From Flavobacteriales bacterium (GTDB lineage: Bacteria; Bacteroidota; Bacteroidia; Flavobacteriales_D; Sanyastnellaceae): 34,910 nucleotides of DNA. The position numbers were made by a program, and so were the translations under genes. The stretch lies in assembly GCA_002683345.1 (NCBI GenBank), contig NYSX01000061.1, positions 1-34,910 on the forward strand, read 5' to 3'. The first letter of the stretch is position 1. Each line of letters begins with the position of its first letter. Below are positions 2 to 3,423 of the stretch, in pieces. Under the pieces are notes generated by a model. That model was given only the letters and a program-made list of their open reading frames with translations, had not been told where the DNA came from and searched no databases.

Positions 2-931
2 GCGGTATCCCACGTCATCCTGGACATTCCGGGCTTTGCACTGAAACACACCCTCGTGTTGTTTGTCGTTTCGTTGTTTGGCAACGTCCTGGGCTTGGTC
101 ATTTCTGCCACGTTCCGCACTGCCAAGGTCATCTACATCGTGATTCCCTTGTTGGTCATTCCACAAATCATCTTCGGCGGGGCCATCATTCGATTTGAGC
201 GCTTCAACCAAGCGTTCACACAGGAAGATGCCGTGCCTTGGTTTGGAAACATCATGGCATCACGCTGGGGCTTCGAGGCGCTTGCGGTGGATCTCGCCAG
301 GAACAATCCCTACGACGCATCCTTGGCCATGTGGGAGGATCGCATTTACCAGGCCGCGTGGCGACGGGACTTTTGGCTTGCGGAACTCAAGAGGACAGAC
401 GATGCCGACAAGCTGATGGCCGAATTGAACCGAAGTGCACACGAACTGCGAGTGTGGGAGGGGAGGGAATTCTCTTGGCCTTGGGGAGCCAAAGAGGACA
501 TCGAGTGGCAAGTGATCAAGGATCGCTACAATGCCCACTACAAGGATGCCTTTGCCGCGCGAACCCAGTTGCGTCAATCCATGGCCTCAACCCAAGATCT
601 CGTCATGCTGAAGAACGACAGCCACAACGACGAGCTGTGGGAGTGGGTGCTTCAAGATGACAGAAAGAAACGGGCACTTTGGGTTGACGGACACCTCGTC
701 CAAAAGTCCGGCCCGATCCACCGGCCGAGCATGACCGCTGCCGGGTTGTCTTCCACCATGTACGCGCCCTACAAGTCTGTGGCCGGCGGCGTCATGCAGA
801 CCCTAGGGTACAACGTAATGGTCCTTTTGGCCATGAGCACGTTGGTGTGGCTGTTGCTCTTGGCACAGCCTTGGATCGCCCGCAAGCCCTGGAATTCAAT
901 CAGTCTTCGGAAGACGTCTCCACAAGCTTGA
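2..931 (+). CDS. ABC-2 type (ABCG-like) transporter permease, C-terminal part; 5' end lies outside the window
   Basis: Frame is open to the left edge (AVSHVILDIPGFALKHTLVLFVVSLFGNVLGLVISATFRTAKVIYIVIPLLVIPQIIFGGAI...). Hydrophobic TM segments, then a long hydrophilic insertion, then a last TM segment (YNVMVLLAMSTLVWLLLLAQPW). Confidence 0.7.
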   Translation, partial: AVSHVILDIPGFALKHTLVLFVVSLFGNVLGLVISATFRTAKVIYIVIPLLVIPQIIFGGAIIRFERFNQAFTQEDAVPWFGNIMASRWGFEALAVDLARNNPYDASLAMWEDRIYQAAWRRDFWLAELKRTDDADKLMAELNRSAHELRVWEGREFSWPWGAKEDIEWQVIKDRYNAHYKDAFAARTQLRQSMASTQDLVMLKNDSHNDELWEWVLQDDRKKRALWVDGHLVQKSGPIHRPSMTAAGLSSTMYAPYKSVAGGVMQTLGYNVMVLLAMSTLVWLLLLAQPWIARKPWNSISLRKTSPQA

Positions 932-1286
932 AAGGCAACTGGATGATGGCGGCGTAGTCCTCGCCGGCTTCTTGCATGTCCTCATCCTCCTCCTCGTAGT
1001 ACCAGTACACCTCTGCAGCGCAACTGCACTGCTCGAGCTTTTTCAGCAAGTCCATGAGGCATTTGGACGAACTCGTGTTGAAGTACTCCAGCTTGACATG
1101 CACCTCGACCTGACCTTCACACGACTTGCAGAAGGACTCCGTCCAGGCGAGAAGAGGCTCGAAGAACTGAATGGAGTTCTCAGGAATGCTTCTCCCGGAG
1201 AGGGTCATGGTCTTGTCCAATGCCAAGAAGCCCACTTCTGGGGTCTTCGCGGTGCGCGCAATGATCAAATCTTCCATGGCATTCAT
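900..1286 (-). CDS. SiaC-family regulatory phosphoprotein (DUF1987-like)
   Basis: 128 aa with LSGRSIPENSIQFFEPLLAW and the EYFNTSSSKCLMDLLKKLE motif typical of SiaC/DUF1987. Adjacent to a SiaB-like kinase with overlapping ORF ends (1283-1286). Confidence 0.8.
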   Translation of the reverse strand: MNAMEDLIIARTAKTPEVGFLALDKTMTLSGRSIPENSIQFFEPLLAWTESFCKSCEGQVEVHVKLEYFNTSSSKCLMDLLKKLEQCSCAAEVYWYYEEEDEDMQEAGEDYAAIIQLPFKLVETSSED

Positions 1287-1849
1287 GTGGTTAGAGGCAC
1301 TTCAACGGTCAAGACAAACCACTGAAGTTCGTTGCTGCAAGGTATAAATTCTGTGTAAACCCTGTCTTCTGAGCATGCACGGAGGTCCAAAAGACCGAGA
1401 CCGGCGCCGCCCTTGTCGGTCCTGGAGCCATGTGCCAGTTTTTTCAGACGCTGTTCCCTGAGCTCTTTCAAGGGCAAGCGATTGGCTTCTTCCAAGGCCA
1501 CGTTCAAATCATCTCTTTGCAAATCGTCCACGGCATTGACACTCGAAAACTGCATGCTGCCATCGCCGTGAATGGCGAATGAGAAACTCCCTCGTCGTCC
1601 GTGTTTGGACAGGTTTTGAATCACTTCAACGGCGCATCGAAACGCCCGCTTTTTGGTGGGTTTGGCCACCTCTGCATCGTCCAAAGCATGCTCCACCCAA
1701 CGCAAGATCGTATCCATCACTTGGCCTTCGAAGGTGCCCTCAAAACAGCACCCCACCTCGACATTCTCGAGGGCGAGGCGACAGGGAGGGTGGAGGAGCT
1801 GATTGTGCAAGGGCATGGTCTTTGTCAAAGAACGCAGGATATGCCGCAC
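1283..1849 (-). CDS. SiaB-family protein kinase (GHKL/HATPase-like; DUF6272-like)
   Basis: 188 aa; N-box-like RAFRCAVEVIQNLSKHGRRGSFSF and G-box-like DKGGAGLGLLDLRAC. Start could also be the internal ATG at 1816. Confidence 0.75.
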   Translation of the reverse strand: MRHILRSLTKTMPLHNQLLHPPCRLALENVEVGCCFEGTFEGQVMDTILRWVEHALDDAEVAKPTKKRAFRCAVEVIQNLSKHGRRGSFSFAIHGDGSMQFSSVNAVDDLQRDDLNVALEEANRLPLKELREQRLKKLAHGSRTDKGGAGLGLLDLRACSEDRVYTEFIPCSNELQWFVLTVEVPLTT

Positions 1850-1873
1850 TTTTGCGACGCGAAGTCAGAGGAA

Positions 1874-2647
1874 ATGCAAGAAGACGTGTGGAAAACAGAC
1901 CCCGAATGGTTCAGGCCATGGTTCAACACCGAGGCATACCACGTGCTGTACGGCCACCGCAGTGAATCCGAGGCAACCCATGCAGTGTCAACGCTCAGCG
2001 CTCGAGGTGTGTTGGGTCAACCCGCGCGGGTGTTGGATGCGGGATGTGGAGCTGGGCGACACGCCAGGGCTTTGGCCAAGGAGGGGTGGACCGTCGAAGC
2101 CTTTGACTTGAGCGAGGCCAGCATCCATGAAGCGCGCGCGATGGAAACGCCCAACATTGCCTACCACTGTCTTGACTTGCGCGACCTGCTGTCTCAAACC
2201 AAGTGGCATGCCTCCTTCGACCTGGTGACAAACTTCTTCACCAGCTTGGGCTACTTTGACGACGAGGCCGAGCACGAAGCTGTGGTGAATGGCTTCGTCA
2301 ACGCATTGAAGCCAAGGGGCAAATTGCTTGTGGACTTTCTCAACGTCCCCCAAGTGGAAGCCAACCTCATCGCATCAGAAACGGTGTCCAAACAAGGGAC
2401 GATGTTTCACATTCACCGCCGCATCCACGAAGGATGGATTGAGAAAAGCATTCAATTTGAATGGGAGGGAAGCCCTCAGCACCACGTCGAACGTGTGAGG
2501 GCGCTTGACCGTTCGCATTTGACAGCGCTTTTGATGAAGCTTGGGCTTGAGGTGCGCCACATTTGGGGAGACTACGACCTGAATGAATGGACGCCGTCTT
2601 CGCCTAGATGCATGATCTTGGCTGAACTACCTACAACGTCGACATGA
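1874..2647 (+). CDS. class I SAM-dependent methyltransferase
   Basis: Motif I VLDAGCGAGRHARALAKEGWTVEAFDLS; SFDLVTNFFTSLGYF...LKPRGKLLVDFLNV. The listed ORF begins upstream (1601), but that part is antisense to siaB; in-frame ATGs at 1841 or 1874. Confidence 0.85.
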   Translation: MQEDVWKTDPEWFRPWFNTEAYHVLYGHRSESEATHAVSTLSARGVLGQPARVLDAGCGAGRHARALAKEGWTVEAFDLSEASIHEARAMETPNIAYHCLDLRDLLSQTKWHASFDLVTNFFTSLGYFDDEAEHEAVVNGFVNALKPRGKLLVDFLNVPQVEANLIASETVSKQGTMFHIHRRIHEGWIEKSIQFEWEGSPQHHVERVRALDRSHLTALLMKLGLEVRHIWGDYDLNEWTPSSPRCMILAELPTTST

Positions 2648-3423
2648 TTCTGACGGCATTGATCTTCTTGGCCACCGCGTTGCTTGGCGGATGGGCCTTT
2701 GTGCTTCTCGGACAGCGGGGCATGGACAATTTGCCAATCATCCTCTCCTTTGGCGGGTCCTTCATCATTGGCATGTGCTTCTTGCACCTTGTGCCTGAGG
2801 CGTATGACGTGACCCACTTGGCAGGCCTCTTCGTGTTGGTCGGATTCCTGCTTCAAGGACTCCTCGAATTTCTGTCGAAGGGCATCGAACATGGCCATTA
2901 CCACACCCATGAACATGGAAGTCACTGTGACCAGCCCTTCACACTGGGTCGACTTCCATGGGCCGCCTTGATCAGTTTGGGATTGCATGCCGCGCTGGAA
3001 AGCATGCCAGTCATGGACCACGACCACCATCACCACGACGGCCATGTTCATGGGCCGCTGGCACTCGACATGATTGATTGGGGCCTCGTCATGGCCCTTG
3101 TCTTGCACAAGGTACCGGTGGCCATGGTGCTGATGGCCATGATGCAGGAACAACATGTTCCCCGCCGTGTGGCATGGTGGGTCTTGGTGGGGTTTGGGTT
3201 GTCTCCACTTGTGGGCATGTTGGCCTTTGATGGGATTGTTCACGGCCTCACCCAAGAGTGGGTGGCCCTGTTTCCTGCATGTGCACAAGCATTCGTCGTG
3301 GGCATCCTGCTTCACATCGGAACCACCGTGCTGTTTGAAGCTGGAGATGGGCACGCATTCAACCGGGAGAAGCTCGTGGCCACCTGCATCGGCATCGCCA
3401 CGAGTTTGCTTGCCTTCTTGTGA
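2644..3423 (+). CDS. ZIP family metal transporter
   Basis: 259 aa polytopic protein with His-rich loops (HGHYHTHEHGSHCD, MDHDHHHHDGHVHG) and ZIP-like TM motifs (LISLGLHAALESMPV, MALVLHKVPVAMVLMAMM). 4-bp overlap with the methyltransferase gene. Confidence 0.85.
   Translation: MILTALIFLATALLGGWAFVLLGQRGMDNLPIILSFGGSFIIGMCFLHLVPEAYDVTHLAGLFVLVGFLLQGLLEFLSKGIEHGHYHTHEHGSHCDQPFTLGRLPWAALISLGLHAALESMPVMDHDHHHHDGHVHGPLALDMIDWGLVMALVLHKVPVAMVLMAMMQEQHVPRRVAWWVLVGFGLSPLVGMLAFDGIVHGLTQEWVALFPACAQAFVVGILLHIGTTVLFEAGDGHAFNREKLVATCIGIATSLLAFL

Follow-up and report, generated by a model that had tools for sequence, protein, structure and literature searches.

A conserved ABC exporter as the candidate output of a SiaB/SiaC-type partner switch in Bacteroidia without detectable GGDEF proteins

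So far, the SiaABC switch has been known for regulating a diguanylate cyclase: SiaB of Pseudomonas aeruginosa phosphorylates SiaC on T68, and phosphorylated SiaC cannot bind SiaD (PMC8457831). What would such a switch control in a bacterium with no detectable diguanylate cyclase? The question is raised by two genes near the start of a 34,910-nucleotide stretch of DNA (the window) from an uncultured member of the Flavobacteriales, represented by a metagenome-assembled genome of 1.85 Mb that is 73% complete. A profile search of this assembly returned no GGDEF protein, and GGDEF matches are equally absent from all 101 genomes sampled from the host family, 48 of which are at least 90% complete; incompleteness of the assembly was therefore rejected as the reason for the absence. 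SiaC is present in 90 of these 101 genomes and DUF6272, the family of the kinase, in 98. SiaC is thus retained without any detectable diguanylate cyclase and its output must differ from SiaD, as the first-pass annotation of the sequence had anticipated should GGDEF proteins be lacking.

The substrate gene, siaC (900-1286, minus strand), encodes a STAS-like phosphoprotein of 128 residues, of which residues 9-123 match the PF09345 profile with 127.8 bits (gathering score 24.5). The only relative found by a sequence search of the PDB was P. aeruginosa SiaC (entries 6k4f and 6kko; E 3e-14), itself described as STAS-like (PMC7647112). Thr71 (codon 1074-1076) aligns with T68 of the P. aeruginosa protein. 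Across 154 homologues this position is occupied by Thr (135) or Ser (19) and by no other residue, which bears out the earlier proposal that the phosphosite is kept. Thr71 sits in an N-T-S motif that opens helix 2, between Asn70, invariant in the same homologues, and Ser72. Some Bacteroidia are rich in such proteins; five genomes (G398, G416, G553, G587 and G618) encode at least 12 SiaC-family members each.

Upstream of siaC on the same strand, and overlapping it by four nucleotides, lies siaB (1283-1849, minus strand), encoding a GHKL/SpoIIAB-fold protein kinase of 188 residues. Its product matches PF19788 (DUF6272) with 49.0 bits (gathering score 26.6), and a profile built from 19 SiaB relatives has P. 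aeruginosa SiaB as its sole PDB match (6kko_A, 1e-27). The same chain is the best fold match of the predicted structure (pLDDT 83; E 1e-8, TM 0.69-0.76), followed by SpoIIAB and RsbW. The ATP site has an intact N-box (E75-x2-Q78-N79) and an intact glycine lid (GGAGLG), with Glu75 aligned with the predicted catalytic glutamate of P. aeruginosa SiaB. The identity of the two proteins as kinase and substrate is therefore well supported by both profiles and folds, and the open reading frames lie where the first-pass annotation had placed them (900-1849). Neither protein reaches the corresponding NCBIfam cut-off: SiaB scores 59.7 bits against the SiaB family kinase model NF038262 (cut-off 85) and SiaC 74.7 bits against the biofilm SiaC equivalog NF038265 (cut-off 150). 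They are thus members of the families rather than equivalogs of the Pseudomonas proteins.

The kinase appears to evolve much faster than its substrate, SiaB being 37% identical to that of a genus mate (L118:9464-9997) and SiaC 74%. A second, solo DUF6272 kinase of 226 residues (L035:3013-3693; 78.5 bits) is encoded on contig C65 of the same genome, in the vicinity of dnaB and a gene for a WYL regulator. Such solo kinases, about 200 residues long, are found repeatedly across the family. Against a single detected SiaC, the genome thus has two kinases of the SiaB type.

The pair had been described as standing alone, without SiaA or SiaD neighbours. For the neighbourhood this is correct: a profile scan of the 16 kb at the start of the window found neither PP2C nor GGDEF domains, and the genes on contig C48, where the 5' part of the neighbouring exporter gene is located, include none either, so that a siaA or siaD gene hidden just beyond the window was rejected. 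For the genome as a whole it is not, as three SpoIIE-type PP2C phosphatases are encoded, none linked to siaBC and two of them of the SiaA type. The first of these (contig C74, 612 residues) contains HAMP and SpoIIE domains and has SiaA as its sole PDB match (1e-34). Its layout is TM-extracytoplasmic-TM-HAMP-PP2C, the hydrophobic segments ahead of the HAMP domain being judged by eye; SiaA has two membrane spans, a HAMP and a PP2C domain (PMC7647112). The second (contig C80, 286 residues) is soluble, with SiaA as its closest PDB match (8e-26). The third (contig C70) was rejected as a SiaA, its best structure match being the RsbU-type Rv1364c. In the host family, the three genomes without any PP2C also lack SiaC (p ~0.001), but all three belong to one genus and may represent a single event.

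A SiaA-type PP2C gene does adjoin siaBC in other Bacteroidota and at second loci of the host family. These second loci, found in larger genomes (L048, L056, L061, L068, L098, L103, L112 and L114), encode a tandem double-DUF6272 kinase of about 370-400 residues and a SiaC with Ser replacing the phospho-threonine, mostly with a SiaA-type PP2C of about 655 residues (TPR plus PP2C in L056). Two open reading frames, L074:5298-8282 and L082:7162-9039, match both the SiaB and PP2C profiles and are apparent phosphatase-kinase fusions directly beside SiaC. A different family of the phylum has canonical PP2C-siaB-siaC-GGDEF clusters (L079 and L080), the SiaA-like protein of L079 carrying Reg_prop/Y_Y_Y sensor domains.

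On its 3' side, siaC faces an exporter gene. Of this gene the window contains the C-terminal 309 codons (2-931, plus strand), with an ABC2_membrane match; the encoded exporter has the apparent domain order TerB, FHA-fold, ABC and ABC2-membrane. The contig ends within the gene. The N-terminal 466 residues are encoded on the terminal part of contig C48 (L195:5467-6864), and both halves match one protein of 986 residues from a close relative (L115), in which the gene is intact across the gap of about 636 nucleotides. Upstream of the exporter gene, C48 encodes pnp, an rpoD-like sigma factor, an HhH-GPD protein and a protein of 526 residues. Pfam finds TerB in 12 of 28 exporter sequences at E values up to 1 (best 7e-8), over the cut-off in L075, and the ABC ATPase and ABC2 membrane domains are present in relatives (L047 and L075). 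The beta domain N-terminal to the ATPase is modelled with a pLDDT of 88, and nearly all of the 50 fold matches listed for it are FHA domains, at E values of at least 0.012; Pfam gives no FHA match in the exporter sequences. Canonical FHA domains bind phospho-threonine through Arg, Ser, His and Asn ligands. Comparison by eye with the FHA consensus reveals no conserved Arg, Ser or His in this region of the exporter alignment. Recognition of phospho-threonine by a canonical FHA domain is thus unsupported by residue conservation, and we do not claim phospho-recognition by the FHA-fold domain.

The exporter and siaC genes overlap tail to tail by 32 nucleotides (900-931), an overlap kept in the genus mates checked (L115 and L118), so that the 3' ends of the two mRNAs would be mutually antisense. 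Of 69 evaluable named loci, 48, from Flavobacteriales and Bacteroidales metagenome-assembled genomes, have the exporter gene immediately 3' of siaC and convergent with it, the other 21 lacking an adjoining exporter. The same convergent arrangement is present in 27 genomes whose best listed SiaC and exporter matches share a contig and are no more than about 2 kb apart. The outer flanks differ between the orders, with pnp, rpoD-like, methyltransferase and ZIP genes in Flavobacteriales and guaA, clpB-like and other genes in Bacteroidales (names assigned by sequence reading). In the window, a SAM methyltransferase gene (1873-2647, plus strand; Methyltransf_25) is divergent from siaB and is followed by a ZIP-family metal transporter gene (2644-3423, plus strand; PF02535). 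They adjoin siaBC in Flavobacteriales (including Crocinitomix) and not in Bacteroidales, so they are probably not part of the system and were rejected as partners.

In family f8 (L075-L077) the genes are arranged in one direction, in the order CheR, CheB, membrane protein, PP2C (PAS/GAF/HAMP), siaB, siaC, exporter, lipoprotein and secreted protein; the stretch from PP2C to the secreted protein is a predicted operon. The lipoprotein and small secreted protein are homologous to exporter-adjacent genes of the family of the window (31% identity, 2e-43, and 27%, 2e-5, respectively), where their order is different.

The association extends beyond gene order. Of 340 Bacteroidia genomes, 192 have SiaC and 178 have the exporter N-terminus; both occur in 171, SiaC only in 21, the exporter only in 7 and neither in 141 (Fisher 2e-62, from genome counts uncorrected for phylogeny). 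Counted by family, both are present in 42, SiaC only in 4, the exporter only in 1 and neither in at least 14. Three genomes of family f2 (G509, G562 and G665) retain both, the best matches lying on separate contigs. In genus g22 of this family the exporter is lost in all four genomes, while SiaC is lost in two and matched with E 9.6e-4 in the third and 1.7e-27 in the fourth. The pair is thus not stand-alone, with SiaA-type phosphatases elsewhere in the genome and an adjoining exporter kept as a partner across the class, and the earlier dismissal of this transporter as an unrelated neighbour is not upheld.

These comparisons suggest that the locus encodes a SiaABC-type partner switch with a rewired output, the adjoining exporter instead of a diguanylate cyclase, a reading to which we give slightly better than even chances; on comparative genomics, the exporter is probably the target of the SiaBC switch. 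In the proposed mechanism, SiaB would phosphorylate SiaC on Thr71, and the unlinked membrane SiaA-type phosphatase (C74), the soluble one (C80) or both would dephosphorylate it when a signal arrives. Binding of SiaC to the N-terminal, cytoplasmic portion of the exporter, containing TerB and the FHA-fold domain, would depend on whether SiaC is phosphorylated; in one of its two states SiaC would bind and set exporter activity, with no diguanylate cyclase involved. SiaC acting on an adjoining exporter fits the proposal that DUF1987 proteins modulate adjacent proteins in general (PMC8457831). More tentatively, and with somewhat less than even confidence, SiaC may be a cytoplasmic on/off effector of the TerB-FHA-ABC exporter throughout the class. 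SiaABC would then control export directly in c-di-GMP-free Bacteroidia, and the c-di-GMP output of Pseudomonas would be one of several of an older module. As 21 of 69 loci lack an adjoining exporter and many Bacteroidia have several SiaC paralogues, SiaC must have other partners too.

SiaBC might instead work as an anti-sigma-like partner switch that captures a sigma factor or another regulator, its linkage to the exporter being merely an old neighbourhood. The resemblance of SiaB to SpoIIAB and RsbW, its next best folds after P. aeruginosa SiaB, and the STAS-like nature of SiaC (PMC7647112) are in keeping with this, as are a sigma-factor-like gene about 6 kb from siaBC in the host family and, in some genomes, an ECF sigma gene close to the second siaBC locus. 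However, it is the exporter and not a sigma factor gene that lies beside siaBC in Bacteroidales and in the f8 loci, and the co-occurrence of SiaC with the exporter is very strong; we consider this explanation unlikely.

The two could also be independent, vertically inherited core-gene neighbours, the true output of SiaC being some unlinked protein. In family f1 the whole block from rpoD through the ABC exporter, siaCB and methyltransferase to ZIP is indeed syntenic, and siaBC and the exporter gene are convergent there, in no common operon and not co-transcribed. The linkage survives in Bacteroidales despite different outer genes, however, f8 has both in one predicted operon with a rearranged order, f2 keeps the two even where they are unlinked, and genus g22 shows a joint reduction of both, making coincidental inheritance about equally improbable. 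A canonical SiaABCD c-di-GMP system with siaD hidden in the 27% of the genome that is missing from the assembly, conceivable given 73% completeness and the canonical loci elsewhere in the phylum, is nearly refuted by the family-wide absence of GGDEF matches.

The component families are known. A literature search that covered few subscription journals gave no report of their pairing with this exporter in genomes free of c-di-GMP, and no paper dealing with DUF6272, with TerB-ABC exporters or with SiaBC of Bacteroidota. The exporter offers a concrete, testable candidate output of the SiaC family outside c-di-GMP signalling, and the switch in turn provides a regulatory context for a widespread and apparently unstudied exporter of the Bacteroidia.

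Compared with SiaABCD of P. aeruginosa (PMC7647112, PMC8457831), the host shares the SiaB-fold kinase, the phospho-threonine motif of SiaC (YFNTSS here, YLNTSS in P. aeruginosa) and a genome-encoded membrane HAMP-PP2C phosphatase of the SiaA type. Unlike that system, it has no SiaD or other GGDEF protein, its siaA is unlinked, siaB-siaC faces an ABC exporter gene, and SiaB and SiaC score below the biofilm equivalog cut-offs. The partner switches SpoIIAB/SpoIIAA and RsbW/RsbV have the same combination of GHKL kinase, STAS-like substrate and SpoIIE-type phosphatase, but the host pair is nearer to SiaB/SiaC in both sequence and fold, and no sigma factor is consistently linked to it. A precedent exists in Mycobacterium tuberculosis, where the FHA-bearing ABC exporter Rv1747 is modulated by PknF, a Ser/Thr kinase encoded alongside (PMC3908365, PMC5549992). 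The exporter described here differs in having TerB followed by a single, apparently degenerate FHA-fold domain, and its putative regulator would be a SiaB/SiaC switch rather than a kinase of the PknF type.
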